From Sipunculus nudus (Eukaryota; Annelida; Sipuncula; Golfingiida; Sipunculidae): a DNA stretch of 64,000 nt. Shown here piece after piece: positions 1,856 to 54,150 of the stretch. The position numbers and the translations under genes were made by a program. The stretch is taken from positions 46,524,401 through 46,588,400 of the forward strand of contig CM049317.1 in assembly GCA_026874595.1 (NCBI GenBank), given 5' to 3'. The notes beneath the pieces are model-generated. The model saw only the letters and a program-made list of their open reading frames with translations. It searched no databases and was not told the DNA's origin. The number at the start of each line of letters is the position of its first letter. Position 1 is the first letter of the stretch.

Positions 1856-2490
1856 TTTAGAAAATTGATAGATATTTAGCTTAGCTGACTTTTAGTCATG
1901 TATCATATGGGTTTTGTCTGTATCCTCTGTTAGGTTGGTTGGCTTATCTGGCAGGAGTAGTAACTCTTTTACTGAAAAAGGTCTCAATTCAAGTCCAGAT
2001 GGGACATGATTGATATCCCAGGAAGCCTGAAATTGGGTCACAGTGACCTGTAGTTATATAGATTTCAAGCAAATCAACAGCAGTAGCCAGTCTTTTGGTT
2101 GACATGTTTGTGAGCAAAGTAAACTTTCCTGTCTTTTGTGTATCGTGAAGTGTATGAATATCTGCAGGTTCTTCATCACATACAGATAGTTAGTGATTCT
2201 TTTTGACTGACAACACATTATAGGTAAGCAGGAAATGTACAATACCCCAAGTATGCATTTTTCCAATAACCTTTCATGCCATAGGCCACTTATATCAGGT
2301 GAAACCAGAAATGTGATTTGCTAACTACAGGCATTCTACAAATAAGATGGATGCTTCATAATGTATGATCATTAGGTATATACATCCTATATAAATCATA
2401 GACCTGTCATTGTTTTTAAGAAAAGCTTTCTAAAATTTTCTCCTACCTCAAATTACAAACTGTGAAATGAATTTTTATCATTTACTTTAG
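1856..2490. other. Intron sequence before ASB-like exon
   Basis: No coding signal. It ends in a good acceptor (TTTACTTTAG, 2481-2490) directly before the ankyrin exon. Confidence 0.6.
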
Positions 2491-2646
2491 GTGAATTCTT
2501 CCAATAGAGATGGAAAAACAGCCCTACACTACTTGATAGACATCTGGCGGGTGATGTCAGAAAACCTCGTTAGTGACAAAAACAAGGATGACTTGTTTGC
2601 CTTGGTTGACCTTCTGATGAAGCACGGTGCTGACTGTAACCTGAAG
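2491..2646 (+). CDS. ASB-like exon with ankyrin motif
   Basis: 52 codons in phase 0 between acceptor TTTAG and donor GTATGG. It encodes the recognisable ankyrin helix pair ending in HGADCNLK. The first codon is GTG and there is no start context, so this is an internal exon. Confidence 0.82.
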
Positions 2647-5106
2647 GTATGGACACATAATTTGATTGAACTTGATTATTGTTTGTATGTAATTATCTTT
2701 TTTATACCTTTACCAGGTGGTACAGGTATGTCGTTTTTCCCCTTGGTTTGTTGGTAGCCTTGTCGGCTGGCAACTTCACACAGAGAGTTTGAAAAGATTT
2801 TGTTGAAATTTTGTGGAGAGATACCTCCAAGGAGGAATGCGTAACATTTTGGAATTAATCTGGACCACAATAATACATTTTGTTGTATTATTTTTTGTAT
2901 AATTATTTACCACCGTGACACAGGGCCATTTCTTTGTTCTATGTAGTTGCCAGCTCACCGGGTTAACCAGTGTTACAGAAGGATGTTACGATGTTCAACA
3001 CTAGAAAGCTTGAACAGGGGATCCTGGTGTGGGTAACCATGTAGTTAATGACTACACACATCCTGATATTAATATGTCCTCAACCTTTTTGATTGGTAGT
3101 GCCATCATCTCAGGGCAGCCTATGGGGCCTCAACTTTGTCAAACAGGTTCATCATAATTATATTATCAACTATATACAGTCCTTTTAACTGAACATGCAC
3201 AATGTTATTTAGAATTCTTACTTGTGTTTTGGTGGTTAATGTTACTGACTAGACACTGAATTTTCATAAGTTAATAGAATTTAAGTTGAACCATATTTCA
3301 TTTGATCAGTTTAAATAAAATCTGAAGAGCATACCAGTACTGCTAACCATAATTTGATATCTCAGACTTGTTTATGCTTATAACTTTATACTACAAATCA
3401 TTCTTGTGTGATTTCTTAGATTACTTTCATAAGGAAAATATATTTATCTGCTGTAAATGTCTTTCTTTTTCCGTAGCCAAGGACCGAGTGGCACATGGGT
3501 AACAGAGACAGTGCTTCTGCTACAGAGACTGCAATACGGTTTCTTTTTGAGTATCCTCGGGATCAGGAACACAACAGCATCCTGGTGAAGAAACTGCTTC
3601 AGGCCGGCGGCAACCCGATGGCGTGGGACTGGTTTTCTTGGTTCATCAACACCATCACAGAGACCGAGGCCAGTGACCTGGATACCAGACTGAAGAGACT
3701 CAAATGGTAAACAAACGTTCACTCTCTGATCACATAGTACATACACACGCATTCTTTAAAGTGATCACATGGTACATACACACACGTTCTAAAAGTGATC
3801 ATATTGTAATATTGGAGTCATCCCAGATTAATGGTCTCAGTTGGATGGGAAGGATACAGTTAACAGTCTGATGGGTCCCTGTTCAATCTGTCCCAGTCAG
3901 AGGCTTTATCAGTAACTTATGGAATACAGATAATTCAAATGCTAATCAAAGTACAATATTTTACATATAATATATGGATGTATATACTGTATATGTTACT
4001 GTAATATAGAACATTTTTTAACTTTCCATTATTTTCATGGTTGGCCTTATAGTTGATACTGACATCCTGTCTGATCACCAGATATCCAGTTTTATGTTAA
4101 TGTGTAGGCCAAAAGACCTTTTTAACTTATTAAAACTCCAGATCTTTGTAACTAATTGATAGTGTGATAGAACATCATGAATTTTAATTTAGTGTCTAAC
4201 TGGGACCCTTCCAACTGGGATCCGTCCAGCTAGCACCTGTCTAAATGGGACCTTCTAAAATAGACTCACCCCAAGGGGGTCAAACTAACTGACACATAAT
4301 TGAATATTGACTCCCAATTTGCTGTTTATAATAAAAATACATACTTTGACTAAAGTGACAGAAAACATATTCAGTGTGCGCTTTGTTTTCAGTTATCTCA
4401 ATACAATTTTGATGACATGCATGCCAGTGTTATAAATGCTTTGATCCAACTGATTCTTTTGTTTGTGAAAGATCAGATTAATTCTCATTTTAAACAATTT
4501 TAATTGATCAGTGAAATAGGTCTATATTACAGCTTTTTAATGCAAATGATTCCTTTTGTTCATTAAATATAAGATTAATCATTTATGATGAAAGGGTGTA
4601 GGAGCAGATATTTTTATTTGAATGTAAGTGACCTTAGTTAGAGCCAATGTCTTGTATTATGTTACAGGGGTCTCCAGTTCATGCTGATGAATGGGGGGTA
4701 TCCTTACCTGCCAGGCCAGGAGAATAATTTTGTACAACAAGTAACCAAGATTATACTGGGCCTCGGGAAGATTTTTACAGATCTCAGACGTACAGAAAGC
4801 CGAAACACAGCTTTGGATATCATCAGTATTCTCGTCAATATCTGTAACATGAATGCTCTTAATGAGCTCAAGAAGTGGTACGAAATCAAGAAGGATGACC
4901 CGTACGCCATTCACAGGGTCCGGGACATGAACATTCTCTGGATGCTGCTCGGGAAGTTACTTGAAAAACCATTCAATTTGCAGACCCTTGCAAGGACCAC
5001 CATATGGTTCAGCATGGGTTACCGCTTTGCCTACATCCATAATGCTCCACTGCCTAAACCACTTGTACAGTTTGTCAAAATGATTGCTGAGCCAGAGAAT
5101 GTGTAA
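2491..5106 (+). CDS. Ankyrin repeat and SOCS box (ASB-like) protein, 3' part
   Basis: Three exons, 2491-2646, 3477-3706 and 4668-5106, join in one frame with canonical GT-AG introns (phases 0 and 2) into 274 C-terminal residues and a TAA stop. The first exon carries an ankyrin-type segment (DGKTALHYL, then LVDLLMKHGADCN). The C terminus (LARTTIWFSMGYRF...APLPKPLVQF) fits the SOCS-box pattern: a leucine/arginine-rich BC-box helix followed by a Leu-Pro-Leu-Pro-like Cul5 box. Such proteins dock substrates to an Elongin B/C-Cullin 5 ubiquitin ligase; that role is known for the family and inferred here. The upstream exons and start lie outside the window or were not recognised. Which ASB paralogue this is cannot be decided: the middle region is divergent and lacks obvious ankyrin repeats. 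Confidence 0.8.
3477..3706 (+). CDS. ASB-like middle exon
   Basis: 230 nt between acceptor TTTTTCCGTAG and donor GTAAAC, leaving phase 2 (the final Trp codon is split TG|G). It encodes a polar stretch, then the ankyrin-like KKLLQAGGNPMAW. The Met inside (3495) is not a start because the frame is open across it from the acceptor. Confidence 0.8.
4668..5106 (+). CDS. ASB-like last coding exon with SOCS box
   Basis: Acceptor TTATGTTACAG, then 439 nt to TAA. Helical LVNICNMNALNELKKWYE is followed by the SOCS box over the last ~50 residues. No convincing AATAAA signal was located close to the stop. Confidence 0.85.
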
Positions 5107-6947
5107 AAAACATTAATTCAGCAAAACATTTATTACAAAGCTACACAGGGAGCCTTTTGTGCTGTAGGTTGAACTGTCATAGTTTCTGTGCTATCCTTAG
5201 CTATCCAGTCCGACTTAGATACTGGGATGGGTCTGTTGTTCTTTTACTTATTACTGCCAGCAGTAAACATTTACTCAGGCTCTCAAAGTTAGAAACTTCT
5301 GTTTTATCAACCAGCCTGGTGACATTGACCTGATATACCTAATGACACTGACCTGATGTCATTAAGCTGTGAACTCTTTGGCTGTCTATCCATGCATCCA
5401 GTCCCATATGCAGAGAACCCCTTTCCATATTGGTTAGTCTCCACATGGGGATGACCCATTTATTATAATGAACTCGTGCACTAAAAAATTTTATTTCTTC
5501 AATTTTAGTGTATTGTTTTTATTCAGTATTCAGTTTAACGTTTATACTGGTGAGGCAAGGCTTGAAGTGGATAAATATTGTATCTCATCAGCCAGACTTA
5601 CACTTTATCAAGAGGTGGCTTTTAGGTTGTATCTCGATGAAGACTGGTCTTATATTCTTTAATGCAACCTTATAAGCTCTGTCAGCTCTGTTATCTTTCC
5701 CACAGACAAGTTCACATACTGCCGACTGATATACCACGTGGCATCCCCATGCAGGCCACCACAGTGATCCCACACTGTTAGAGTTAAAAAATCCTCATGA
5801 GGGACACATGCATGGCCCACTTGATGGAAAGGCACCCGTAATTGTAATCTTTGATAGATGTGTTAACTATTCACACATGCAGTTTTGCAAATGTTAATGA
5901 ATGCAATACAGTTAATGGGTAAAACCTGTGGTTACCACTTGATTATTGTTAATTTCCAAACTTATTACACTTATTGGCAAGTTTAAAATGAGCATTCTCC
6001 ACCACTGTCCAGGTAAGGGGCAAACTTTGTATTTGTATTTGTATATATAGTGCATTTATATATTTAAATTTCTGTGCTAATCTTTCAGTTAGTATATGTA
6101 AAATTTGAATTATGTATTTTATCAGTACTGTTCAGTTACGGTTCAAATACTGGTAAATGCAATTTTATGTGCCATATGTGACTATTGGAGCAGTTTCAAA
6201 TGATAAGGTTATGTATTTGTCATTTTATTACTAGTCAGCGCATGACCGTTAATGATTTTGTGTTAAGGTCAATGTTCGAACAATGCTGTTACCATGGCAT
6301 AAGGATTCTTTTTCTTCAGCCATTATTATCAGTGTGTAAAGTATAGTACAGGAATTGTCCTGTCATTATCATTATCCCCAGACTTTAAGAAGCCAGGTTC
6401 AGACACACACAAGACTTTTGAGCTTCCAGATGAAAGGCAACCAGCATCATCAGTTCATGCTTATCTTAAATACCAGATTAAACAACTTATGTTCACATGA
6501 TTAAAACTAAATATCTGTCAACTCTTTAAGCTATTATTTCATGACTGCAACCAAGAGCCTGAACATTTACAGTTTAAAGAGATCATACTTATAGTTTCTC
6601 AGTTCATCCAGTGTTTGTATATGATGTCACATTTGAATTGGTATTTGTATTTGATGTCCAGTATTTTTATGTCTTTGACTATGTAGACTTTTATTTGACC
6701 AGGGAAGACTATTTGTATTTTGACTTGTGTATTTGACTCCAGCCTTCATTCTCCACCACTTAGTCTGGGAACAGCAAGCAACTGCCAGTCAAGCATAGCT
6801 ATAGTGTTTTGGTCCCTCTCAGTGCAAATTCAACAGGCACCAATCCAGGTTTTTTTAAGCAGGGGGGGGGGGGGGGCAACACTAGTGTAGATAAACATTG
6901 GGTGATTATTCCCAGCAATTTACCTGTCATGGTATAAAACTGGTCAA
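5107..6947. other. 3' flank of ASB-like gene, no second gene seen
   Basis: Probably 3' UTR followed by intergenic DNA. It includes a short run of degenerate TATTTG/GATGTC repeats near 6600-6740 and a G14 tract near 6863. No supported ORF. Confidence 0.45.
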
Positions 6948-8707
6948 GAAAAATATTGGTGGTTAAGAGGTGGGAGGGTCTCTCCCCCCTGGATCCGTGA
7001 CTGTTAAAATGAATATAATGTTCAGCTGGCAATTGATACAACTCGGTAAGCTCTTACTCATGATTCATATGTGAACACTGAAGCTTCCCTGCAATGATAT
7101 AAATGAAAAATTATAAAGCAAAGGAGGAGAAATGTAAGGTGCTGCATGCCCTTAATTACTCCCCCATAAGCTAATGTATATCATCAGGTTTTTTTTGTGT
7201 TATGCTTTCCTTTTTAGCCCTCAGCCCTTAGGCTGATGGGCTATTGTCGTCACCCAAGCTGTCCGTCCGTCCGGCGTCCGTTAACTTTTACCTTGTGAGC
7301 GGGATATCTTGAAAAGGATTCACCATCAGAGTTTTATTTCCTTGGTAAAGATGTATATCGACAAAATCTTGGTCAAGTTCGAAGATGGGTGACCTTGAAC
7401 TATTTTTCTACATTTTAGAGCTGATTATAGAAAAACACTTAGATGCTTATTACTCAGGAACCATGTGGTGGATTTTCACAAAATTTACTATGATTATTAG
7501 GACTGATAGTCTGTACCTGCTTAACAAGTTTGGTGGCGCCACCTACAATTTCTGATTTTAAATGAATTTTAATTGGATTTTTCAACTTTGGGCTTGTGAG
7601 CGGGATATCTCTAAAAGGATTCACCGTAGGAATTTTATTTTTTCGGTGAAGATGTATATTGACAAAATCTCGGTCAAGTTCGAAGATGGGTGACCTTGAC
7701 CTATTTTTCTACGTTTTAGAGCTGATTATAGAAAAAACATTTAGAAGCTTATTTCTCAGAAACCATTGGGTGGATTTTTTAACAATTCTTACTATGATCA
7801 TAGGGACTGATGGTCTGTAACTGCTGCACAAGTTTGGGAGCGCCACCTACAATTTCTGATTTTCAATGAATTTTTCATGGATTTTTCAACTTTGGCCTTG
7901 TGAGTGGGATATCTCTAATAGGATTCACAAGAGGAATTTTATTTCTTTGGTGAAGACGTATATCTACAAAATCTCGGTAAAGTTCGAAGATGGATGACCT
8001 TGACCTACTTTTCAAGGTCACAGAGCTTATAATAGAATAAAACTTAGAAGCTTATTTTTCAGGAAGCATTTGGTGGATTGTTATGAATCATGGTACATAC
8101 CTCTCCATTTTAAATTTATAAACTGAGACATGTACAGATATACATCCATGTGAGAACAGATATTTAGTACTTGTTTACTGTTACCACCTCTAAACACTGT
8201 TGTTTTGGCTGAGGGCTTTTGTCAGCTTCTGCTGATATTCTAGTTATTTTGTTGTTTTCACTGAGTTAAAATGTATCCAGAGAACTTGATTTATGCATGT
8301 GTGTACATAGTTTTTGATTGGTTATATCAAATTCAACCACACCATTTGATAATGAAGAGAAATAGCAATCAGCAAAATATTAAGCTTTTTCGGTGCAACA
8401 TTTATATTTAGATACTTATCAGAAAGCTAACAGCTGTTAATGCATGATACGTGATTTTATGTTTATTCTGCAGTAGCAAGACGTAAATTGTGGTAGGGTG
8501 GCTGTGATGACGTCAAGTGACTGTATCCCATATATGTATTCAGAATACAAACAACAATACCTAAAAGGTATGGATGAGATGAGGAGAGATACTAAAAAGT
8601 TAAATACACGAGTCTTACCCAAATAGCAGACCTTGCAAATTTGTGATTAGTTTGCAAACAGACAATGAAAAATTAAAAATAAGTTATGTCTAAAATACTG
8701 GGCAATC
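6948..8707 (+). repeat. Interspersed repeat, copy 1 (pair of 22830-23893)
   Basis: Matches 22830-23893 almost colinearly: both have CCTGGATCCG, then AATATAATGTTCAGCTGG, AAAGCAAAGGAGGA, TTGATTGGTTATATCAAATT and the TGATGACGTCAAGTGA block. The copies differ by insertions: this one carries a HINE at 7216-8243, the other a palindromic element at 23143-23411. The family itself is not identified; the GGATCC-containing end resembles hAT-like termini elsewhere in the window. Confidence 0.75.
7216..8243 (+). mobile_element. HINE/'pearl'-like Helentron derivative, family A
   Basis: The 5' end folds into a hairpin (AGCCCTCAGCC... pairing with GGCTGATGGGCT). The core holds about 2.7 tandem monomers of roughly 302 bp; CTTGTGAGYGGGATAT recurs near 7293, 7594 and 7898. 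The 3' end is hairpin TCAGC-ttct-GCTGA followed by ATATTCTAG, with T on both outer sides. The empty-site sequence in the paired repeat copy (22830-23893) shows insertion in a T tract without target duplication. These are the known hallmarks of Helentron-dependent elements. No protein is encoded. Confidence 0.75.
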
Positions 8708-22337: not shown

Positions 22338-23142
22338 AATCACATGTGACTTTTCGGACAGAAAAACTTATTAGCCAATCAGCGGTAAGTGCCCTATGTG
22401 ACCTTTTTCTAGAAGTTCTGAATATGCGTCGCATGTAAACAAAAGCCTTTTCAAGGTGACGTTATATATATATTTCCCGTATTACGTTCTAATTTAATCT
22501 GACAACTAGCAGTAAATATAAGCCCTATATAATAACTTTTTCATCATAATCTCACCCTAGATCATCAATGGTAAACATGACTATGCATATGCTCCTGGTC
22601 TATAGCTATGACGTAATATGTAAACAAATAATACTCTTTCGTTAGTCTGTCAGCGTCAGTACAATTACATCAATACATCAGCATTCATATAACATTATAT
22701 CAATAATGTTTATAATGTTTATAATGTATATTGATGATGTTCATGAAATAAACATATTACATAAAATAAATTTGTCTTTGGGTTTACTTTAACATCATTT
22801 AATGTTGGCATTTGTGTCACTGGTGTCTAAAAAATATTGGTGGGGTAATTGAGACTTGGGGGGGGGGGGGGGGGTCTCTCCCTCCTGGATCCGCGCCTGT
22901 TCAAATGAATATAATGTTCAGCTGGAAGTTGATACAACTCTGTAAGGCTCTTACTCGTGTATTTATATGTGAACACTGGAACTCACTGCACTGATATACA
23001 TGAAAAAAATTATAAAGCAAAGGAGGAAGAATGTAAGGTGCAACATGCCCTTAATTACTCCCCATCAACTAATATTTTCATCAGTTTTTTTTTAATGTTA
23101 TGCTTTACTTTTCTTTTTCCCGTTTCTGACTGAGTTAAAACC

Positions 23143-23411
23143 GTGTCATTCTGGGACAGCTGGACGACAATATAACTTAATACGTAATAAGGAGTTAAGT
23201 GGGTGTAATTGGGGGATTACTGCTGTAGTTAGGGTTGGGGTTAGGTTTGGTTAGGGTTAGGATTAGGGTTATGGTTATGTATCACTTTATCACTGTATCA
23301 ATTACACCCACTTTAACTCCTTATTACGAAGTAAGTTATATTGTCGTCCATTCAGAATGTCCTCCATTTGGAATATCGTCCATCCCTAAGTCGTCCAGCT
23401 GGAATGTAACC
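23143..23411. mobile_element. Palindromic MITE with telomere-like centre
   Basis: Arms of about 48 bp pair: GGACGACAATATAACTTA through GGGTGTAATT at left with AATTACACCC through TATATTGTCGTCC at right; outer ends both contain CAGCTGGACGAC. Imperfect flanks GTTAAAACC (23134) and GTTAAACCA (23412) suggest an 8-9-bp duplication. The unoccupied site in the paired copy confirms insertion. Confidence 0.75.
23227..23278 (+). repeat. Degenerate TTAGGG repeats
   Basis: GTTAGGG, GTTAGG and ATTAGGG variants over about 50 bp at the loop of the palindromic MITE. Confidence 0.85.
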
Positions 23412-23930
23412 GTTAAACCATATCCAGAGAAATTGATTTTTGCATGTATGTATATAATTTTTGATTGGTTATATCAAATTCAACCACACCATTTGATATT
23501 GAAGAGAAAAAGCAATAAGCAATGTATTAAGCTTTTTTGGCGCAACATTAATTATGTTCAGATACCTATTTGAAAGCTGTCAGCTGTTTATTCATGATGC
23601 GTGATTAGCACATGTCAACCTTATATGTTTATTCTGCAGTAGCAAGAGATAAATTGTGGTAGGGTGGCTGTGATGACGTCAAGTGATTGTATCCCATATA
23701 TGTATTCAGAATACAAACAACATGCAATACTTAAAAGGTATGGATCAGATGAGGAGAGATACTAAAAAGTTAGTTACATGAGTCTTACCCAAATAGCAGA
23801 CCTTGCAAATATGAGGAAAATTTGTGATTAGATTAGTTTGCAAACAGACAATGAAAAAAAAAATAAAAACAAGTCTTGTCTATAATACTGGGAAATCTAT
23901 GGAACATAGGTAGAGCAGAGTTTTTGGCTC

Positions 23931-28185: not shown

Positions 28186-28494
28186 TCGTTAACTAGGGAC
28201 CCAGGGGCCTCGACGCTCAGCTGAATTTGTCAATAAGGATGTTTTTCAAGAAATTTTTCAGAGAGACGGTCCTGTGACCATAAACAATTACCTTGAGACC
28301 AAAAAATCTGAGAACTTATTATCCTTGAACTTGCAGCATTAAGATTGTTGTAACAATCTTTTAAAACAAGGCCTAAAAACCTTATGGGAACCTGTGCAAT
28401 GGGATATACATCATGTATAATTATTCCATGCTGGACTTTTACTTTTCAAGTACATGTGTGACATGTATATGTCAGAGTTGGGTCCAAAAGTAAT

Positions 28495-28620
28495 TGTAAT
28501 TGAAGTAATTGTATTGTACTTGTAATCGATTACTTTTTTAAATCCTGAAAAGTAATTGTACTTGTAATCGATTACTTTTAAAAGTAATTGTTTGAACAAT
28601 TACTTTTTAATTACTTTCAA
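28495..28620. repeat. AGTAATCGATTACT palindromic tandem motif
   Basis: Two tandem copies of AGTAATTGTACTTGTAATCG followed by ATTACTTTT, plus half-copies; ATCGAT-centred palindromes typical of MITE termini. Confidence 0.7.
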
Positions 28621-31600
28621 GTTCTGTGTAAAATGTGAGAGTAATATACAATTACAGCATTCAAAGTGATGGTATTATTAAAGATAAAAAATAATCTTTT
28701 ATAGTTTCAAAGTACACAAAGCACAATGCTCATTTTACTATAGAACTATTACTTTACATGCCCTGCTAGGTGGCCAGATAATGCAGGTATGGTTTGTTGT
28801 CGGCCAGTTATCACTGGTCTACAACCGACTGTCAGGACACAAGTTTGCCAGCTGTTAGATACCAGGGATCTAGTGTATGTACTATATGTACAATACAAGG
28901 ACTGAACATTTTGAACCCGATTGCCTGCAACAATTACAAAAACATCATTGCTGAAATATGTCATGGATGCACATAGCACAAAAATGATTGTAAGTGGCAC
29001 CACCAATCTTGTGTATGAGAAAGCCATCAAAGATGTATGGAGAAGAAAAAATCAGGCAGATACTTCAAACCTCTGTTAGGCTATGTGCACTGATGCATGA
29101 AACAACCAGAAAACCAGTAGTTGACAAGTGACAACATGTTTCCGCTGAAGTCAAGAGTGGTTCGGGTGAAGTGACAGATGGATTGAGTGGTATGTCACAC
29201 CATTGCTGAATGTAGTCAACTAAAACTCTGAGAAAAGGGTATGAATTTATTTAACAAAAACACCTGCCGCCACATGTCTGGTTTACGTGACACCTTTCCA
29301 AGATGGATAAGAATGTCAAATTTCAGACCAATACCTAGACCCACTCCTGAAATATGAGCAATTTTTACCCAAAGCACAGGCACGGATGAACACCATGGAA
29401 AAAGGAAAGCAGACGACGCCACCAGTCTTAGGTACAAGATGGAGGAGTCAAAGATCTATGGATATCCACACTAGCAGGCAAATACTGCGAATCACTCCTG
29501 AGAAAAGAGCATTAATTTATTTTATGCAAACGGAAAGGTAAGTGGTGCCGCCTGTCTGGTGTACTCGACAACATTCCAAGATGGATGAACATGCTAAATT
29601 TCAGACCAGTACCTTCATCCACTCCTGAGATACGAGCAATTTTCACCCAAAGCATATCTACGATTGGACGCCACGGGAAAACAATTGCAGATGGCCCCAC
29701 CATTCTTTGGTACAAGATAGAGGAGTCCAAGATCTATGGATATGCAAATTTTCATGCCAATACTGCGAATTGAAACTAAACTGAACTTAAGACCCCCTGA
29801 CAGTTTCCAGGGCTAAAGGCATTCATGAGGTGTCCACATGCAGCCTTGAGGGGCATGGCACCCATGAGGGCATCACATGCAGCCTTGAAGAAAAGGGAGC
29901 TGAACTGACCTTATGACCCCTAGCAAACTCAGTGAACACTCACTGAACTCTTGACCTGTACCTGGCTGCACTGAGTGAACTCTTGGCCTATACCTGGTTG
30001 CACTGGGAGAACTCTTGGCCTATATCTGGCACAGCTGGCAGTCTGCCAAAGCTATAAATAGACCCAGACTGACTTTTGGCCTGTTGCCAAATCTCAAACA
30101 TTTGGCAGTCTGCCAAGCTTTATATAGATACAGACACAATCTTGGTCTGTCGGTAAATCTGTTTATACATACTGAAAGACTTTGCCTGCAGATATTGGCC
30201 TGATTTTTGGTGTGTTGGCAGATTTTGACCAGTTACAGATAGAGTTCGCGTTTCGTACCAGTTGACCTATTTTTTACCGTTTTACGGCTCCTGAACATAG
30301 AAAATTTCATGATGAATATACATTTTCATGACAAATACACATGTACGGACTTTTTTTCGCATGCCTGCAGATACGGGCCAGAATTTTGGTGTGTGGGCAG
30401 ATAATGACCAGTTACAGATCGAGTTCTTGTTTTATCCCAGTTGACCTACTTTTGACCATTTGACTGCTCCGGAACATAGAAAGTTTCATGAAAAATAGAA
30501 ATTTTCATAACAAATGCGTATGTACGTACTTTTTTTCCCGCATTGCCTGCAGATACCGCCCTGATTTTTTATGTTTGGGGAGATAATGACCAGTTACAGA
30601 TCGAGTTCGCGTTTTGTCCCGGTTGACCTACTTTTGATTGTTTTACGGCTCCTAAACATAGAAAATTTCATGAAAAATATAAATTTTCAAGACAAATGTT
30701 TATGTACAGCCGTTTTTAGCCCTCAGCTCATAGGCTGATGGGCTATTGTTGTCACCCAAGCTGTCTGTCCGGGGTCCGTCCGTCCCGCGTCTGTTAACTT
30801 TTACCTAGTGAGCGGGATATCTCTAAAAGGATTCACCGTTGGAATTTTATTTCATCAGTGAAGATGTATATCGATAAAATCTCGGTCAAGTTCGAAGATG
30901 GGTGACCTTGACCCATTTTTCTACTTTTTAGAGCTGATTATAGAAAAACACTCAGAAGCTTATATCTCAGGAACCATTGTGTGGATTTTCACAAAACTTA
31001 CTATGATCATTGGGACTGATGGTCTGTACGTGCTGCACAATTTTGGTGGCACCACCTACAATTTCTGATTTTAAATGAATTTTTATCGGATTTTTCAATT
31101 CTGGCCTTTTGTGCAGGATATCTCCAAAGGTATTCAACACAGGAACTTCATTTCTTCAGTGCCGTTGCATGATATTTACAAAATCTTGGTCAAGTTCAAA
31201 GATAGGTGATCTTGACCTACTTTTCAAGGTTACAGAGCTTAGTATAGAAAAAACTTAGGAGCTTATTTCTCAGGAAGCATTTGGTGGAGTGTTGTGAAAC
31301 ATGGTACATACCAGGGGTGTATCCAGGATTTGTTATGGGTGGGTCGTGATCATATTATTTTGGACCTTTTCGAAGGGCATGTGTAGGATTTTGGCCAAAG
31401 TGCGGAGGTGGAGCTCGCATGTAAATGCGAGAAGTACCAGAAAGTGGGTATGATGGATCGGTTCTGTTCATGAGTAGTAATATAAAGAATGCAGGATCTG
31501 ATGTATGATTCTGATGTTCCATACATTTTTCCATTGAAGCTTTGTAAAATGGCTGTAAAATGACGTTTTGAAACCAAATTAAAAAAAAGAAATTTGATCA

Positions 31601-32244
31601 TTTATACCTGAAAACCAACTGAAGGTCAGGGAATAGCCAGGGAAAACTCAGGGAATTTTGTCAGAGTTAGCTGCTGGAAACCATGTTAATTACATCGATA
31701 CATGCCTTGTATATTACTTATTTATTCATGAAAATTTTTAAGGTAGCCCAATTGGCATTTAATGTAAATGTTATCCATGCGGCCACCCCCGTAGGTTTAA
31801 AAGTCGAAAGATCAATAAATAATAACATCTTTTGTTGCTTGTAGCTCAAAGATTAACATTATAAACATGTAATATCAGTATACGCGTTGGTTAAAACTTA
31901 CATATCACTTCAATCGTATATGCACAACATTATTTTATTGGACTGATTTTCTTTTAGTAAAATAAGTTAATAGAGACAAGGTTTGCCAACTACCCGCAGA
32001 TTTTGTTGATGACTTACTAATGTGTTGTCATGTTATTCTTTGGAAGGAAAATAACTTTTTTACATTTCATTTGAGGATAATTTAGCATTAAACAGATAAA
32101 AAAAATCGTTAGCCAAATCATAAAGTCAAACGTTTCAGTTAAAAATGGAGATTAATAGCTCTGTTAATAGTGATTGAAGAAGAGTCCAGCTCACTGAACA
32201 AGTCTGCTAACTAAACTGGTGTGATGGTAGTCTGATTTTAGAGG

Positions 32245-32246
<2 letters not shown>

Positions 32247-32324
<78 letters not shown>
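32247..32324. repeat. (TA)n(GA)n compound microsatellite
   Basis: About 40 bp of TA directly joined to about 38 bp of GA. Confidence 0.95.
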
Positions 32325-32328
<4 letters not shown>

Positions 32329-33420
32329 AAAATGAAATTTATATTTAGGCCATACTGCTTGTCCGATTGCGCTTGTTAAGATATATTTTTGGTTTATGTA
32401 TACATTCTGTGTTTAAGTGTTTGCAGATTGTTCTATCTTTTATATTGTCTTGAGCGGTTGCCTTTGGGTGGCGTTTCTGGGTACGTTTAGTTCTGATGTT
32501 TTCGTTAACCTACCAACTCATGTTAATACTGATTTCCCGCTTTAAGACTGGCTTACAATCGACTGACTTACTGGCTTACCGCGATGTGTTCCAGTAGGCT
32601 GTTCCGATGTATTCCCGATGCCAAGCCGATGTAACAGCGATATGTTCCTGAGTGACCCCGACACTGAACATTTTTGAAAATGTTAAAAAATATCCAGATG
32701 TCACCCCGATATGCCCCGATGTTTCCAAGCTGATGTTACTCCATGCCAAGTCGATTTCATAATGGGGGCGACATCAGCAATGACCAGCTTGTATATAACT
32801 GCGTATAAGTAATATGCAATGTCTTGCAATAACCACGCTCGATTTAATATGACATTGACATGGGAAAAGACTTGCTACGGCTCGTACCTGAGCTGGTTAG
32901 GCTGTGGACTAATGTTCAGCTGATTCGCCGCTCCATTGTCTATTTTTTTGTGGCAGATGAGGCTTGTTTCTTATTTGTTTTCTTGCTTTGATTTGTTAAA
33001 AAGAAATCTTAAAGGTAGTGAAAAATGACTACTTTTGTGTAGATTACATGCATCATACATTTAACTGAATCGAATTTTGTATTTGTCCTGATAAGTATGC
33101 ACATTTCCCAACGGATACAATCAGTGCCCTGCCTGATTGTTCTAAATCATGCATGTCTTCGGCCTGTAGGTCGCTGAATATAGATCACCATGACTTAATT
33201 TCAGGTTTCCAAGGAGATTTGCCTAGAAATTCCCTGTGTAGCGTTTGAAGATTCTAAACCTAACATATACGGTTTCAGCTCATATATGACATTCAGGGCG
33301 CTCAAATCATATTTTCGTCCCAAAGGTCGCAGTATGTTAAACCAGGTAAAAAACTTACCTTCTCAGAGTTTGTGTGAAGAAGTCTAAAATTTTGTTTTTG
33401 GATATTCTAATTTTCTCAAT

Positions 33421-34260
33421 TGTTACAGGTGTCTCTATTATTGTGCGCTGTTGACATTCTGATTCGTATAAGGCAGGCCCTGGTTTATTGTGCGTAGGAG
33501 TGTTGCATGTGTCTATTAGGCAGGCATAGTCTGTTGCAATGGGAGACGCGCGACCCGGCCGGCCCGCATGTAGGGTCTGAAGTGTAGAAACACAGCGTTC
33601 TTTGTTCTAGATGGTTCAAGTCTGTTCCTGTAAGTGGTGTGTATTGTTCTTTGGGATTTTCCATTTCTAGTACTTTCGGATAAAAAGTTATAAATAAGGG
33701 GCTGTGTTTAGAGCCGGGAGAGAAGGAGAGAGAAATATTCCAGCGGACATGGAAGAGTGTGAGTCAGTGTGTGGACCTTTCGGATAATCGGATATAGATA
33801 TTCTTCGAACTTTGTAACAGATTTTATTTAGTCTTCAGTTTGCCTTTGGGACTATTACCAGAACTTCACTTTTGGATTACAACGGATTGATTTCGGGATT
33901 GAATTGGACTATTATTCTCTGAGAAGATTTACGTGAACTGTTCATCTGGATTATAAGTTCTTAAGGACTTGTTGAGCTGTGACAGTGGTGGTATCCAGAA
34001 AAGCCTAGGATCCGGACACTCTGGTACTGTACATTTTTTTGTTTTACTGTGTAATTGTATTGATTTAGTGTATTTTAATGTCAGGATTGTTTTAAGCATA
34101 AATTATAATTATTTGTTAACAAAAAACCAATGACTTCTTTATTCATTCCCCTTGACATTTCAAGCTGCCTAGTGTTACAGAATCTGATTTTTATTTATCT
34201 CCGTAACAAAACTTATGCTCGTCACGACTACGTGATCTGTTGTTATTAGGTTCCGTAACA
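33421..34260 (+). mobile_element. Solo LTR of an LTR retrotransposon
   Basis: Starts TGTTACAGG and ends CCGTAACA, the short inverted TG...CA termini of LTRs, flanked by CAAT on both sides (33417-33420, 34261-34264), a 4-bp target duplication. A TATA box (TATAAATA, 33689-33696) lies about one third in, followed by a purine-rich GGAGAGAAGGAGAGAG stretch. At 840 bp with no adjoining primer-binding site or gag-pol, it is a recombined solo LTR; probably Ty3/gypsy-type, not provable from the LTR alone. Confidence 0.78.
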
Positions 34261-34877
34261 CAATCAATATATATATACAGGCTGTACACAGGCGCCAAAA
34301 CCAGGTAAGCTACTTGTGACCAATAGTTTTCCAAAGATGTTCTCATCCTGTTCTGCATTGTGTTCAACAGTTGTGCATGAAAAGTGGCTTAAACTTTTGA
34401 TCAAGAAGACAAAAGCAAGCTAGCCTAGGTCACAGGTCCAATGTTGTTGTTGTTAAAAATACAAAGCCTCAGTTTCTCCTTGTTTTGCCTATGCATATAG
34501 AGTTAGAACTACTTTGCCTCAGGGGTGAGAATCATTGACGATGGGTCAGGTCCGGATCCGGGAGGGTGGGGATTCCTGGATCCGCGCCTGTTGGTTATGT
34601 ACGTGTCTATTCGATCAAATTTTTAAGATTCATTTAAAATCAGTGATGTTTAAGTATAGAAAGGATACATTTTATTAAGTTTTCTGGAGATCACATTTTG
34701 ACGTTCTGAATGTGACTTAAGTTGGATAAACCACGGCGAAATTCAACACCACACACTGACATTACCTGAACCAATCACAGAACCGGTATATAATGTCTAA
34801 CCATCAGGACTGTCTTGCCCCATGCAAAACACGACATGACCTATGCGTGGGCAGCAACTTCCAATGTAGCCGCCGAC

Positions 34878-34914
34878 GGCGACGCAACAGGTTTCAGGTT
34901 TCTGTTGCGTCGCC
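34878..34914. repeat. Perfect GC-rich hairpin
   Basis: GGCGACGCAACAG, an 11-nt loop, then CTGTTGCGTCGCC: 13-bp perfect arms. The sequence that follows (GGGCTAACTGGGGTTATAGC) recurs in inverted orientation near 49400-49460 with one change, so this belongs to a dispersed repeat. Confidence 0.75.
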
Positions 34915-36831
34915 GGCCCACCAAAGGGCTAACTGGGGTTATAGCACGATACGATCTGTTACTCTTAGAAAGAAAATTAAATAAGAATATTTCCTATGGT
35001 TTTAGCAAACCAATGTTCACATAATGTTGTATGTCGAAAGGCCTGTAATAAAAAATACCCATTCTGGAAAGCATGAAGCACCTGTAATATCAGCAACTGA
35101 TAGTATTTGTCCAGAGAGAATTGAAGCATTAACAGCCCCGTAGACATCTTGCATTTGGTGGCAGTCCTGTATAAGGCTTTAGGCCTGTGTACTATTATGT
35201 TCATATTTTAACTTCCTTGGTGCAAAATAGGGCTGAGAACAGAACAGTAATGTTTTCCAGTAGTCAAATATACAATACACATAGATGTACTGAACATTAA
35301 TCAATGGATATATGTTAAATCTCACAGTTGTGTATGGAGTGTTATAATCACAGTTAACTGCAGGTGCAATCTATGGACTCCACAATGCGTCAGTCACTGA
35401 AAAAGGAAATTGAGGAGTTCATTCTTATGGGCTACTTCCAATGAGGCTTTTGTTTGTCCAACATAGCTAGAGAGTGTCATCCTATACTAGTACTTAATTG
35501 TAACAGTTTTAACTAGGGCCTGCGCCTTACAAATACAACTTGATGAGTTTATTTTACAAAAGGTCTAGGCACGCCCTGACAATGTACGAAATTGGATGGC
35601 CCTAAAAATTTGTTGAACCGATTTTAAGGGGGGGGGGGCTGTTGCGCCAGTTTCCACAATTAGTGCCACCAGCCTGAAGCGGATGGCTCAGTTTAAGAAT
35701 TGCTGGATTTGGGATAGATTTACAACATGCAATATGCAAGGTCTTTGGACTCATTGCTGGTACCTGATCAATGCTTTTTCATTTATGTCATTGTGAAAAA
35801 GCCCTTGGAAAAGATGTCATTGGAAAAAATTTGGACCTTTTGAAAATTTTGGGGGGGTCGTACGACCCTCACGACCCCCCCTTGCATACACCCATGCATA
35901 CCTCTCCAATTTAAATTTATTACTGATTATCAGCTTTTGCTAATATTTTAGTTTCGCAATGCAATGCTTACAGATCTAGATACTGGCCTAATGTTTGGTA
36001 TGTGGGCGCATAATGACCACTTACAGATAAGAGTTCGTGTTTCGTCCCAGTTGACCTATTTTTGACCATATGACAGATCCTGAACATAGAAAATTTTATG
36101 AAAGACAGAATTTTTTTATGAAAAATGCACATGTATGGACTTTTTTTTACAATGCCTGCAAATACTGGTCTGATTTTTGGTGTGTTTCTTGATAATGACC
36201 CGTTACAGATCGAGTTTGCATTTTGCCCTTATTGACCTACTTATGACTATACGACACCTCCTGAACTTTTTTTTAAATAAGCAAATGTTTCTAATTTGCC
36301 CAAGGCAGGGGCATCCGTGTCGTTCCGACACATCTAGTTAAAGATCTTTTCAGCCAGAGCATGTTCAAATTTCCAAATATGACCGAGATATCTCTCTGAC
36401 AGAAGCACATTATTTCTACTTTCTTGTCCAATTGTAGCTTCACAATCTGTGATATAAGGAATTAGGACGGTTGCCTTCCAAGTAGCAATGTGAATTTTCA
36501 TGATCAATGTTCTATCGTATGCATATTTTATTGTTTCCCTGTGATAATTAAGGATCCCATGCACACATCCATCGTCCGCCTCACTGATAAGGACAAGACT
36601 GTTATTTTAAAAAATCAGTTTTAAGCTTCAATCAAGCACATGCATGTATAATAAGAGCTCGGTGAGCTGTGGCATGTCTTTCATTACACTGCAGATATTT
36701 GCATCAATCTTGCATAATTGTTAAACCCACATATTTAAGCATTTTCAAGATTACACTGCCCTAGTTCCATTTAACCAATATTTATAAACACAACCGAGTT
36801 TCCACAAAATTGTTCATACATCACGAAATTC

Positions 36832-41163: not shown

Positions 41164-44100
41164 CTGAAAAGAACAAAACCTCTTTGATAAATTTTGTCAA
41201 ATTTTTCTAACACACAAATACCTTTGAGGCTACAGCTTTTGTTACCTTGTGGTGACTGTGGATAAAACTACTGGTATATGGTGTGTAAATGCCCAACAAA
41301 CAACTAAATCTCTCTTTTGTTTCCAAGGTTGTGATATAAATTAAAAGAGACATTGTGGTAGGATATAATATAAGATTCTGTCAAAAATGACATGGAGTTG
41401 GTAATATAAATTTGATGTATTCTGTGGTTTTGGTTCTGTACGCAAGGGTCCCATATTTGCAACATTTGTGAAGGGGAAATTTTCACAAAAATAAAATCCT
41501 CATGAATATAAGACACCACATCTGAGTTGAACAGTAATTTATTCTATAGCTTAGGGGAAAGTTAATATGGGGTTCACAAAAATTTTACATTGAAGATGAA
41601 GGTCAAATTCACTGGATTTCAACCTTGTCCAAGAATTTTGTCAGAAGAATCAGTGCCTAAAATTTTCGAGGAAAATATGCAGCCCTTCATAAGTTACTGC
41701 GTTAACAAGATATCCTGCAGAAGACATCCCTGGCTCCAACTGACAATGGCGCTGAAAACGTTTCCCAAAGTGGAGCAAACTTGAACCAGCTTTGATTTAA
41801 ATTTTACTACAGTGTACATGTAGATTCTGATCACCAGCTTAACACCTGCTGTTGCATACCTCCGCACATGCCTGGATGGTGGCTGGTCCAACACCACCAT
41901 CAACTTCAATGTCCAAGTTTCTGTAGTTCTGTCTCAGGTACTGAACCTGGGAAAAAAAAGACACACAAATGACATATTTTTACAATTCAGACAATAGGCT
42001 AAATATGAGAAAGCTAAATTTTGTATTAACAATGCTAAGCTTGAGACAATGGTGAAATGCTACACATTTTTTTTTGTATGAGGTAACCGCCTCGACTTTT
42101 TAAATGCTAGCTTAACTACCCATGTAAACCTGCAGAATTCCATTCAAGTTTCAGACTACATGACTTGGCAGTGGCACCACTTCCTCTCGTTTTATATCCT
42201 GGTGGTAACCAGGCCCAGTGACTACTGCACCTGCAGGCCAACACAAGGGGTTCACAAGCCCAGAATGGCTATAGCCAGCTTGGAGGGCCTCACCTAGAGG
42301 GTCAGCGGATGGGGATGGAGGAGGAAAAAGAACTCAATAATTTAATGTTTCCTAAAATTTTTAATTACTGCCTAGATATAATTTACTGGAAGAGTGGACA
42401 TCATATACATAGATATATTTATAAACCAGTGTGGAAGTGGAAAAACAAGGAGTTTTGATATTGAGCAAGTTGAAAGAAATACTTTGATGTTGGTCTGTTC
42501 CAGACAGACAAAGGGTCATCAAAGCTTAGATAACTTAAAGAGAGTTAGGTGAGGTAAAAAGTAAAAGGCTAGGAGTCTCATATTTTTCTAAAAAAAAATA
42601 ACTTACCTTTGGCATCATATCATTCATAAATTTCTGACCACCAAAACCTGGTTCTACAGTCATGACCAGAACCATGTCGACAAGATTCACGTATGGGACC
42701 AGAGCTTCTACAGCTGTGCCAGGTTTAATGCCCAGTCCAACCTGCATGGATTAAATATATCATAATAAGACACTCGTCACCTTACATATTACCAGATCAA
42801 AATGGAGAAATTCAAAAAGTTGAACAGTTAGTGGTATGAATGAGTTTCTTGAGATGGAAATCTTATTATTATCAGTGAGTTCAGGGAGTCTGAGACCACT
42901 CCAGTCCAAGTCCACAACTGCTTAATGCTAAGCTCTGGCATTGCCCCCGAGGGGGGGAATCCCCCTCCAACAGTGTGGAAATTTTTAACAAGCCTACAGG
43001 CCTAATTCGAACCTGTGCATTGGGAAATACACCAGGTATAATGCTTCAATGCTGGGCCATTACTTTTCATGTATATGAACTATGCAAGTATTAAACATTT
43101 TGAATAAGAAACAATTACACAAACATCACTGCTGAAATTCTGACATAGGTGCACACAACACTAAAAAGATTGTAGCTGGCACCACCAGTCTTGTATACAA
43201 CGAAGCTATCAGAGATATATACATACGCCCAATTTCAGACTGATATATCAAACCCCTCCTGAGAAAAACGTGTGCAAAAGTCATGGTAGGTGGCGACACC
43301 TGTCTTGTGAGCGAGAAAGCTATCAAAGACACATAGACAGGTCAAAATATTAGGCCAATACATCAAACTTACCTTGAGTCTGATGCATGGGGCTGACCAG
43401 GCTTAGGTGAGAAAGGCTGTTGCCCCGAGTGAACTGTGACAAATTGCTTGCTCAGACTACTGCACTGAGTGAACTCATGACCTGCACCTGGCCAGACTGA
43501 GTGAACTTTTGACCTGTACCTGGCTGCACTGAGTGAACTCTTGACCTGTTGCATAATCTGACACAGTTGGCAGTCTGCCAAAGCTATAAATAGAATGCAG
43601 CTACTGCACTGAGTAAACTCCTGACCCATACCTGGCTGCACTGAGTGAACTCTTGACCTGTTGCCTAATCTGATACAGTTGGCAGTCTGCCAAAGCTATA
43701 AATAGATCCAGATTGACCTCTAGCCTGTTGCCAAATCGGAAATAGTAGCCACACCATTGCATAAGCTCATGCAGGGGCCCTGCCCTGAGGGGCTTGACAC
43801 CCATGAAGTGATCACATGGTGCCCATGAGGTGTTCACATGTCACCCATGAGGTGATCACATGCCATGTGCTTGGCTGCACTGATTGAACTCTTGACCTAT
43901 ATCTGGCTGCACTGAATGAACTCTTGGTCTGTTCCCAAATCTGAAACAGTTGGCAGTTTCTCAACCTATTTAAAGAAACAGATTCAATCTGGGCCTGTTG
44001 GTATATCTGTTTACACATACTGAAAGACTTTGGTTAAAATTTCTTTTTTCAAGCCGACATATTCATAAACTTTTTATCAAAATATCTAGAATAATAAAAG

Positions 44101-50100: not shown

Positions 50101-52656
50101 AGTCAAAATGATGAAATTGCAAAATTTTAGCCTCGCGAATATAAAGGGAACTAGAGTCTGAAATTTTACCCTAGGTGGACGATCAATTGGACATGATGCA
50201 AAAATGGTTGGAAGTTTGGCCACCAAATTTGTAGAAGCTGTAGAGCTATGTAAGAAGTATACTTATGCAAAATTTCAGGCTGATACATCAAACCAGTCCT
50301 GAGATGTTAGCATGGATATCTGTAGATGAAATGTGTAAGTGGCGCCACCTGCCACAAAATCCAGAAAGCTGTCCAAGATGTATACATATGCAAAATTTTA
50401 GGCAGATAAGTCAAACCACAGCTGAGATAGGAGTGATTTTATCCCAAGGCAGACAAACAGACCCTGTGCAAAAATGGAAAAATCTGTATCATATGCACCA
50501 GTTTTGTGTATGATACAGAGCTATGCGAGATCTATACACAAGCAAAATTTCAGCAGGATACGTCAAACCAGAGATATCAGAGAAATCCTGAGATATTAGC
50601 CTGGATGTCTGCAGTCTGAATATGAATGTAAGTGGCACCACCTGTCATAAAACAAGAAAAGCTATCCAGCATGTATGCACATGCAAAATTTTAGGAGGAT
50701 AAGTCTAACCACTGCAGAGATAAAAGTGATTTAACCCAAGGCAGATTAACAGATGGACGCTGTGCAAAAATGGTTGCATGTGGCCCATTTTAATCATATC
50801 AGCACTGGGTCATGTATTTAGCATGATGAGGTCATATATTTTGATGGCCAGATTTAATCAGACTCAATATTATTAGGGTCTATCTAAAACACTGAGATAA
50901 GTGGATAGATGGAGAAATTGCGGAGAGTTTTTATATGCAATGTGAGTTTTTATATGCAATGATACTTTTAAATACACATTACAATCACTTAAAATCTCCA
51001 AGTTTATTACTCTTAACATATTTGTTCACTGTTAAATAACCTAAATAATTAAAAATCTTTACATTCACGTAAAATTCAGCTCTCTCAATAGTTTGGACAA
51101 GCAGGTTCTTCTCTTAAGATTTTATTTGTTCCATGCCAGAGACAACAAATAGCATCAGGAGTCTGTGGGCTACTTGCGAATTGCAAATGCAGTTGATCTT
51201 TGTTTCAATCAAGAAATTAAACAAACTGAACATTTTAACCAGGGATTAATGCAAAAACACTTAGTTTCTTGTTTCAGTTCTGGCATTTTTACACCATTTC
51301 CTAAAACAAAACTGCCTCCTAGAATACCAAAGACTTAATATAAGGCAACTGTAACCATTGCAAAACTTTCTCCAAGAATACCAAAGCCTTGGTATAATAC
51401 AACTGTAACCATTGGGATTGAATGCGAATGTGGGTTCGAAGACATGACTGGGTGCGATTAAAAAAATTTAAAACATGTAATAAGTGGTTTCTTTTCAATG
51501 TGCATCGTCTTTAAAATAACTAAAACAATTAATGAAATGGATTTGTTAAGATTGTACAAATAAATCTTGTATTATTACTGTGTACATTGTGCAATATTTT
51601 TTTTATTATTGTACTTTGTATTGTTATGGTCAGAAAGAAGTGTGGTGTATTTTGTACAGACTAAGAAAAATAGGCTTTAACTGTGATCACAATATATTTA
51701 TATTTTCTATTTTTTCTTCAATTTTGTTAAATCCTACTGCCAAGTTGATTCATTAGCTTAAAGGTGCAATCTTTGTTTGTGTACATGTATAAAGTAGGTT
51801 TGTTTCAACTTTTATTTGTGCATATAAATCATGTTTATACACTATTATGGATGATAGTGTTTTTTACATATCAATAAATGAAGGTAAAAGTATGATTTAT
51901 TTATAATATTTTACATTTTGTTCACCACCTGTAAATTTGATACACCCACAGTTTTGTTATGGTTTGCACAATTAACTTTTGAAACTGTGTTTTGCCCTTT
52001 TGTCTTTAGATCTGTCAGTGTCAGCTGGTGACTCAGACAGGTGTTTTATTTTGCGTAATGCATTCACTCGGCGGTGAGTCTACAATGTTAAGCATAAAAT
52101 GCTTATGTACCAATTTTTTATTTTGGTCATTTAACAGTGCCCAAATATGTTATGGGTAATATAGCTGGAGATTTTAATATTTGAATGTATCATTGCATAT
52201 AAAAATTCTCCGCAAATTCTGTGTTTATTCTCCGTTTTAGACAGACCCATTTTATTAATATTAGGCCTTGCAATATATGGATATATGTATATAGCATGGC
52301 CTAATAATATTGATTCCGATTAAATCGGGCTAATATTGAACATGAGGTAATATCTTGAGTATGAGGTCATAAAATGAGCTACGTTTAAGCACCTGTTCTG
52401 GCTTGTCCACCATCATATGCATGTCAAAGAACACACCGGGCAGCTTAGGCCTCAGACATTTCACTATGGGGTGGCCAAAAGTCAAATTAGGGACAAAACT
52501 GCCGTCCATCACATCTAAATGCAGATAGTCTGCCCCGCTGTCCATCAGGCGCTGACATTCTGAGGATAATGATGACAGGTCAGCATTCAAAATAGAAGGT
52601 CCTATTTTGCAAGAATACCCGCCACATGAATTATCGGATCCGTCCGTTTGATCCAT
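41041..52656 (-). CDS. RPE: Ribulose-phosphate 3-epimerase
   Basis: Interconverts ribulose 5-phosphate and xylulose 5-phosphate in the cytosolic pentose phosphate pathway. Five exons (52393-52656, 48695-48802, 42607-42741, 41860-41946, 41041-41163) join without frameshift into 238 codons plus TGA, all introns GT-AG and phase 0. The TIM-barrel landmarks are in order: SILNADL (Ser21), HLDVMDG (His46, Asp48), FFDMHMMV (His80), [12 protein letters not shown] (phosphate/active-site loop) and [10 protein letters not shown] (Asp185). His46, Asp48, His80 and Asp185 are the metal ligands of the family, with the two Asp acting as acid/base. Close in length to the human enzyme (228). An in-frame ATG 34 codons upstream (52758) gives a longer alternative start; the chosen one leaves 16 residues before KIGPSIL. 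Introns 1 (3.6 kb) and 2 (6.0 kb) are full of repeats. Confidence 0.97.
41860..41946 (-). CDS. RPE: RPE exon 4
   Basis: 29 codons, acceptor TTTTCCCAG, donor GTATGC. Carries the catalytic [12 protein letters not shown]. Confidence 0.96.
42607..42741 (-). CDS. RPE: RPE exon 3
   Basis: 45 codons, acceptor ATGCAG, donor GTAAGT. Carries [10 protein letters not shown] and [14 protein letters not shown]. Confidence 0.97.
42990..44035 (+). repeat. Repeat shared with 28380-30200 (Helitron-like body)
   Basis: Matches the 28-30 kb region in the same orientation: GAACCTGTGCATTGGG, AACAATTACA-AACATC, GGCACCACCAGTCTTG, then tandem CTGCACTGAGTGAACTC units and CTGTTTACACATACTGAAAG. Lies in RPE intron 2. 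The termini of the larger element are not present here. Confidence 0.7.
44440..46720. repeat. Tandem-core repeat, family C
   Basis: Monomer blocks recur: ATGACCCCCGTACAAAAA followed by GGTGGTGCCACCAATACCT near 44900 and 46215, CTTCCCATAACTCAGCCAAA-type pieces near 44290, 45880 and 46060, and AGAAGATTTTTAAAG. It ends in a GACGGACGAC-like tail near 46660. Coding-free, in RPE intron 2. Confidence 0.6.
47041..47920 (+). mobile_element. Family-B HINE-like element, copy with complete ends
   Basis: 5' palindrome TGACCCATGGGTCA, then the CTCAGCTGACTGGGAAGAG block shared with 12981-14003, about two core monomers, the GACGGACGGACGACGG tail and the 3' hairpin AGCTCAGCATGACT-gaa-AGTCAGCTGAGCT followed by AAAAA. 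This is the cleanest example of the family here. Confidence 0.78.
48389..48406. repeat. Poly-C tract
   Basis: About 17 consecutive C. Confidence 0.95.
48695..48802 (-). CDS. RPE: RPE exon 2
   Basis: 36 codons between acceptor CCGGCAG and donor GTAGGT, encoding [20 protein letters not shown] and on to the AGMK that leads into exon 3. Confidence 0.96.
49540..50830. repeat. Tandem-core repeat with GTGGCGCCACCTG
   Basis: At least three monomers share ATATGCAAAATTT, TCAAACCA(G/C)TCCTGAGAT and GTGGCGCCACCTG (49658, 50339, 50630 as GTGGCACCACCTG), with ACAGACGG-type linkers. Related in design to families B-D. In RPE intron 1. Confidence 0.6.
50831..52392. other. RPE intron 1, remaining part
   Basis: AT-rich. 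The half-sites TTTTTATATGCAATG near 50930-50960 and CATTGCATATAAAAATTCTC near 52190 are inverted about 1.2 kb apart, with ATTTCTCCAT/ATCTAAAAC pieces and ATAGGCCTTGCAATATA-like edges. This suggests a further palindromic element filling 50870-52270. No gene. Confidence 0.4.
52393..52656 (-). CDS. RPE: RPE exon 1
   Basis: 88 codons from ATG to donor GTGCTT after MMVDKPEQ. Encodes Ser21, His46, Asp48 and His80. The upstream ATG at 52758 is in frame without an intervening stop. Confidence 0.93.
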
Positions 52657-54150
52657 CTTGACTTTCACGTGTGCCAAACAAATCTCCACCAGGGGTCTCT
52701 CTGCATCAAGTTGGCTGTTGACTCGTACCCAGTGCATTAATATCCCACTAGGCGTCAACTAAGATAGTGTATCGGGTACCGGTCTAATTATCCGAAGGGA
52801 CTAAAATTGGAATGTAGGAGGTCTAATGTGACAAGTACAATTCTACACACTAAAAACCTGGACGTTGGAAAATGGTAAATAAAGAACTTGAGAAAAATAG
52901 TTAATTTTATTACAGTTGACATCACGGCAAAAATTACTTATTCAAAAATGACTGATTCAATTGAAATAATTTTAACAAAACACCTACGCCACTTATGAAA
53001 GCTGTCTCTATAAAGAGCAGTACGTTTATTTAAGCCATGCATGGCTATCGATAAACGTACCTTTATTCATATGGAAATATTTGGTTTTGGTATTTTTATT
53101 TTCCTTTTTTTTAAATATTCTTCCAATCTTTTGTCCGATTTAATTTATTCTTCCTCAGGATGAATCTTACCACATAAAATTACTTAACTTAAAAGTGCAA
53201 TTTTTAATATTTTAATGTCGATTATCTCCTAGCCAATATATTACTGGTACAAAAAATATGATTAAAATATCACAATTAAGGTTGCCACCATTTCTAAGAC
53301 AATATTTTGAAATTCATTCATGAGATCATAGTAGTAGGTGACTCAGCACTCTCCAGTTTCCACATGGACCGTTTGACCTAGAAAGTTGAAATATACGTAC
53401 AGCTATATATGTAATTACGATTAAAAAGTACAGGGGGCAATGCCAGGCGCGTCCCGGAAATTGGTAGGGCCCGGCAAGGTCTCTACATTTAAGAAGTCAT
53501 GAAAACGACAAATATATTGTGAAATTCAGATATCTTTAATATGATCGAGACCTAATTTATTTAACATATTCCAAACTGTCTCAATATTATTTCTATTAAA
53601 AATGACAAATCTTAACAAAATGGAAAAATGAACGTGAAATATTTCTACCACTTTATCCAATTCAACTTGAACCCGCTTCTTTGGAAATTTCAAGTAATAT
53701 GCAGAACCTAAGTTTGTCATCACGACACTGAACCTTCGAATCCTTAAATTGGTATCGGGTATTGGAATTTGGTGTCAAAAACCAGATTAATTTTTTGTTT
53801 TGACAGGAGGTGGGGATTCTGGGCAACCCAGAACGGTAACCCAAGGGTTCAAACCTGAGTATGTAGTCTGTTTGGCAATTATAATTCTACAATAAGATAT
53901 CTCAGATCAATTCACACGGTCCTATATATTCGACTTCTGACATTTGTTTATTTACATCCGAGTTTTAGGTCTCTACGATTGATATTCTCCGGGAATTCCC
54001 CGGATCTTTGCCGATTCTCGTATTGTTGGAAAGTCCCGTGTTTTCATTGGAGACAAGTTTGACAAGACATGTATTCACATGTCAAGAACGCCTGGGTTAA
54101 TTCATTTTTCTTTCAATCAAGGGTATTTCTGTCATTAAATAAATTTGAAT
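52657..54150. promoter_or_regulatory. Putative shared RPE/IQCB1 upstream region
   Basis: The two starts diverge across 1.49 kb. Inference: both promoters lie here. Near 53975-54035 is a GC-richer patch with CCGGGAATTCCCCGG close to the IQCB1 start. A 65-codon minus-strand frame at 53526-53723 (KFPKKRVQVELDKVVEIFHV) looks protein-like but was not identified. No TATA box can be assigned. Confidence 0.45.

Follow-up and report, generated by a model that had tools for sequence, protein, structure and literature searches.

The 64,000-nucleotide stretch of the Sipunculus nudus genome analyzed here (the window; C12:46524401-46588400, contig CM049317.1) contains a nest of transposable elements, all on the forward strand. 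A solo long terminal repeat (LTR) lies within a hAT-like DNA transposon, the transposon lies within a HINE, a non-autonomous Helentron, of family A, and HINE A in turn lies within an element of a second, Helentron-type family, F. The repeats of the window are related to each other and to sequences elsewhere in the genome beyond chance, with identities of 72-89% and E values down to 0 when the window was compared with itself, and of 86-99% for copies outside it. A scan of the window for RNA families found none at the gathering score. The genome searched comprises 1.43 Gb in 153 contigs; in each search the best 40 of 1,160 to 6,968 candidates were scored, and "other places" refers to those that remain when the window itself is set aside.

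The solo LTR and its hAT5-like host

The innermost element known from the initial annotation, an LTR of 840 bp (33421-34260) with the ends TGTTAC...GTAACA, was confirmed, together with its CAAT duplication on both sides (33417-33420 and 34261-34264). A query that covers the LTR and the adjoining hAT sequence (33300-34400; best 40 of 6,968 first-look candidates) found both LTR edges with the hAT flank in the window and at 24 other places with identities of 90-99%; of the remainder, seven showed a single edge or a disrupted form, while the LTR alone was matched at eight (86-88%). All 39 places other than the window were fetched, which gave 31 composites of LTR and hAT sequence (L009-L039, some of them partial) and 8 free LTRs. 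In a tree, the 32 captured LTRs (window included) and the 8 free LTRs were split by one branch with a support of 98/97. When the LTR was removed from the query and the hAT sequences on its two sides were fused (250 + 250 bases), a contiguous match was obtained at 26 places (81-90%), and the other 14 rows were half matches at eight composite places, the window being one of them. The LTR-free sites were read at five of the 26 places; they have the sequence TCTCAATCAA in four cases and TCTCAGTCAA in one, and carry one CAAT fewer than the surroundings of the LTR. The recurring composites, the single group of captured LTRs, and the LTR-free sites demonstrate a real insertion of the LTR into a hAT copy, apparently a single one, at a locus other than the one in the window.

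Solo LTRs of LTR retrotransposons generally have inverted TG..CA ends and a short target duplication. The LTR in the window has both and would be a solo LTR reduced from a full LTR element; it differs from solo LTRs in general in that it was multiplied inside a DNA transposon. Inspection of the eight free LTRs by eye revealed exact 4-bp duplications in L040 (AGAT), L044 (ATTC), and L045 (ATTT) and a match of three of four bases in L043, the remaining copies being truncated, located in TA runs, or flanked by non-matching sequences. In L046, the LTR is followed by a stretch that resembles a primer-binding site, of a presumed tRNA type, and a test for gag and pol at this place gave one weak SCAN match (E 0.0098), which is below the cut-off.

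The host of the LTR extends from 31312 to 35896. Its 5' end was placed correctly in the initial annotation, as seven fetched composites align to it and seven further 5' ends were read separately, but the 3' end has to be shifted from 35893 to 35896: 19 fetched copies out of the 31 composites align to the latter position, 16 of them with the exact sequence CACCCATG. The ends of the element are CAGGGGTGTATCC, that is, CAG...ATG and not CAG...CTG. For 14 copies, the sequence of both ends is available (four further copies, L015, L022, L023, and L025, have no usable 5' end). An exact 5-bp duplication is present in seven of the 14, compared to one in 182 cross-copy pairs. The duplicated sequences are CATAC in the window (31307-31311 and 35897-35901), AGTGG, ATATA (in a TA run), GATTT, AAGAG, TCTAT, and GACCT. 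Other lengths were rejected: an 8-bp duplication was present in 0 of the 14 copies, and duplications of 3, 7, or 9 bp matched in L011 only, which sits in a TA run.

Inside the same element, we found a fifth layer that the initial annotation had missed, an insert of 567 bp (34867-35433) that is flanked on both sides by ACTTCCAATG (34857-34866 and 35434-35443). The uninterrupted site is present in five other copies, some of which have one or two changed bases. Within the 31 composites, the insert is present in L009 and L010 and absent from 25, whereas L036 has other sequence at this position and three do not cover it. Mutator-like elements are characterized by 9-11-bp duplications and terminal inverted repeats; tested for this, the insert has a duplication of 9-10 bp and a terminal repeat of at most TAGCC/GGCTA. 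Two further observations concern the hAT-like element itself. At position 33108, many other copies (L015-L019, L021-L023, and others) hold about 556 bp of extra sequence, which may reflect an insertion or a deletion, and positions 34547-34590 form a 44-bp palindrome from two hAT-like terminal motifs, CAGGTCCGGATCC...GGATCCGCGCCTG.

HINE A within the array of family F

HINE A is split by the hAT-like element, as proposed in the initial annotation. Its 5' part with 304-bp repeats (30717-31311) and its 3' remnant (35897-35951) both match an intact copy at 7215-8243 of the window. This comparison copy has the features of a HINE, namely, 11-bp subterminal inverted repeats (AGCCCTCAGCC), a 3' palindrome (TCAGC..GCTGA), a TAG/TT end, and insertion into a TT target. 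Family F likewise has the features of a HINE, with subterminal inverted repeats, a 3' palindrome, insertion between T's, a microsatellite, and 179-bp units, and the parts of both elements fit the HINE plan in the portions of PMC4067079 and PMC7492417 that were available. In the window, the left part of the central array of 179-bp units (30183-30716) runs up to HINE A, which lies within a T-run of that array, and the right part of F (35952-36337) comprises the remainder of the array, the subterminal repeat, a palindrome (GTGTCG..CGACAC), and the CTAG/TT end.

The repeats of F on both sides of HINE A and the 3' end at 36337 stand as annotated, and 40 other rows stop 1-17 bases past this end (query positions 139-155). 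For a start of F at 28186, there is no support. The sequence at 28365-30182 (repeat G) resembles a relative at 42987-44032 and does not belong to F in the copies found elsewhere, the border at 30182/30183 is spanned by 0 of the 39 other scored places, and most copies of F elsewhere open with a different module of about 100 bp. In this module, the subterminal repeat ATGCCCCCGCC is accompanied by an inverted copy of itself and by a TCCGTCATTCCG-type run. This module is present in 10 of the 11 places that were read at greater length for F and A. The subterminal inverted repeats of other copies are ATGCCCCCGCC and GGCGGGGGCAT; of these two, only the repeat at the 3' side is present in the window copy, where it differs by one mismatch. 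The start of F in the window has likely been truncated or replaced.

Both borders between HINE A and F recur at many other places. The left border is spanned by 39 of 39 other scored places, and so is the right one (39 of 39). In the 11 places read, the right border was as in the window in every case, with an identical 55-bp remnant of A, the left border was as in the window in 10, and F continued to its own 3' end in 10. Compared to the intact copy, the HINE A of the composite is missing the 11-bp subterminal repeat at its 3' side. L056 (C1:265700-270700) contains a simple F element that has no A and sits between T's within the A segment of that place. L056 is thus an F/A copy that was struck by a simple F, a second HINE-in-HINE nest that involves the same family.

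How did F come to have two arrays? Recombination between arrays and filler DNA have been offered as routes to the double-array Cg_HINEs of Crassostrea gigas (in the available part of PMC7492417), and a double-array element that arose in this way, with no nested insertion, would agree with the missing 3' subterminal repeat of A in the composite. We consider this origin unlikely, since A retains its own 5' end and its 3' TAG/TT, is surrounded by a T-run that belongs to the array of F, and is followed by the continuation of F. Instead, we lean toward F/A being a clear case of the birth of a double-array HINE, in which one HINE inserted into the array of another, the inner 3' terminus was disarmed, and the pair spread. 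HINE A would have inserted between T's of the central array of F; without the 3' subterminal repeat of A, rolling-circle replication may have continued past the inner 3' end as far as the outer 3' end, and the double-array element would then have multiplied and left one copy at the window locus.

The surroundings of these elements hold further repeats. Positions 28457-28882 of the first copy of repeat G are missing from the second copy and contain many GTAATTG / GTAATCGATTAC palindromes, perhaps another small insert. The second copy of G lies between exons on the minus strand (52330-52758 and about 42600-42760) and is probably intronic; by eye, and without a search, these exons resemble ribulose-phosphate 3-epimerase. 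The flanks of the intact HINE A (7106-7214 and 8265-8400) match a repeat copy at 23005-23112 and 23412-23547. Between its matching flanks, this copy (23005-23547) has a different sequence of about 299 bp, which includes telomere-like TTAGGG units.

Assembly of the nest

The junctions between the hAT-like element and HINE A behave differently from those described above. The left junction was spanned by the window itself and by 0 of 39 other places, three of which matched on the hAT side and 36 on the A side. The right junction was also spanned by 0 of 39; all of these matches begin at 35894-35899 and pass through the remnant of A into F. Furthermore, the uninterrupted target, TACATACC, is present at four loci (L049, L050, L051, and L056). 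Among the scored places, the insertion of the hAT-like element into HINE A is peculiar to the window locus. The entire nest could be viewed as a single mobile unit, either a large composite repeat or a segmental duplication, as two of its three nestings do recur as composites, but junctions found at 0 of 39 other scored places on either side and a target that is uninterrupted at four loci make this extremely unlikely.

A history in which F, HINE A, the hAT-like element, and the LTR inserted at the window locus one after the other, as the initial annotation had it, would account for the plausible ends of every layer and for the fact that each host can be rejoined. Indeed, the rejoinable hosts and the nesting order as a history are borne out by the LTR-free hAT sequence at 26 places, the HINE A without the hAT-like element at four loci, and the one F without A. 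The initial annotation had also named the observation that would speak against it, namely, junctions that always recur together as one composite repeat. This is the case for the LTR in the hAT-like element and for HINE A in F but not for the hAT/HINE junctions. With the LTR and both hAT flanks at 24 other places and each of the two A/F junctions at 39 of 39, four successive insertions at this one locus are very unlikely. Since the composites were built elsewhere and independently of each other, the order of the LTR insertion and the HINE A insertion is not readable from the nest.

The hAT-like element came to the locus well after F/A, in the order that the nesting requires. This follows from the end branch of the window, which is 0.061 in the F/A tree of 11 rows (compared to 0.002-0.034 for the others) and 0.0012 in the LTR tree, and with the 99.1% identity over 2,692 columns between the loaded hAT-like element and L009, which matches only from 33208 on. 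Evidence of age here consists of branch lengths, not of dates.

Taken together, it is highly probable that the nest consists of two independently built composites and that a recently moved, loaded hAT-like element landed in an older double-array HINE F/A. In our model, a non-autonomous hAT5-like element would have received an LTR element (with CAAT duplication), now a solo LTR, and multiplied along with it; one sub-line would have gained the 567-bp insert and multiplied again, and a copy so loaded may have entered the F/A copy of the window recently by cut-and-paste, with CATAC on both sides, through a transposase not seen here.

A number of observations weigh against this model. Because 40 places were scored per search, "unique" means unique among those places. 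Seven of the 14 hAT copies have no exact 5-bp duplication, two of them matching in four of five bases and five not matching, some of these being shifted or located in TA runs. None of the inner branches of the F/A tree is supported, the left F/A border of L057 was lost in a deletion, and the 5' module of F is absent from the window copy and also from L067. The loss of the 3' repeat of A may have preceded its insertion into F or followed it. Finally, no Pfam match to a transposase was obtained at the cut-off for the nine ORFs (open reading frames) scanned out of 13 listed with at least 60 amino acids in 31312-35896 (the input being 10 ORFs, from 32 in the region).

Since no transposase was found in the scanned ORFs, the hAT label rests on the ends and on the length of the duplication. 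We take the start CAGGGGTGTATCCAGG to be similar to hAT ends. It is doubtful, but a serious possibility, that the element belongs to a superfamily other than hAT5: a transposase was not seen, and the termini read CAG...ATG instead of CAG...CTG. In favor of hAT5 are the hAT-like start and the 5-bp duplication, the feature by which hAT families are termed hAT5 in the available part of PMC12730594 (citing Repbase Reports 2007). We therefore name the element hAT5-like and non-autonomous, and a non-autonomous copy need not encode a transposase. It shares the 5-bp target-site duplications with the hAT5 group as described in that part of PMC12730594 and differs from the group in having no visible transposase and in being loaded with an LTR and a second insert.

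Relation to known elements

The F/A element resembles the Cg_HINEs of C. gigas, for which the accessible text of PMC7492417 describes HINE ends, a microsatellite, satellite-like arrays, T-rich targets, and, in some cases, two arrays; there, the origin of double arrays is left open, whereas here the second array apparently came as an inserted HINE. The composite Helitrons of Fusarium oxysporum are also alike in that self-insertion was followed by loss or mutation of the inner termini while the outer ends were kept, but those are fungal non-canonical Helitrons (PMC5148889, as far as its text was available), and two HINE families with central repeats are involved here. A review describes nested Helentron pieces inside other elements and several or mixed arrays per element (PMC12628747, in part); these are treated in the review as a source from which satellite DNA forms, whereas here one defined pair has spread as a unit. 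F/A would thus fit known kinds as a further example, with a disarmed inner 3' end and outer ends in use. The literature searched, as far as its text was accessible, mentioned neither the F/A element nor the multiplication of an LTR in a hAT5 element, the related ideas being those of PMC5148889 and PMC12628747.

In sum, the nesting is real and mostly ordinary, the loaded hAT-like element representing the familiar spread of a composite, and the value of the analysis lies in the corrected history. Transposon classes cannot be ordered by their activity from the depth of nesting at a single locus without a genome-wide test of each junction. The hAT5-like element is an example of a DNA transposon that multiplies a captured LTR, perhaps together with regulatory signals. 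F/A, in turn, offers a testable route to two arrays in satellite-carrying HINEs, a question that is open in the oyster work as far as the available text of PMC7492417 goes.

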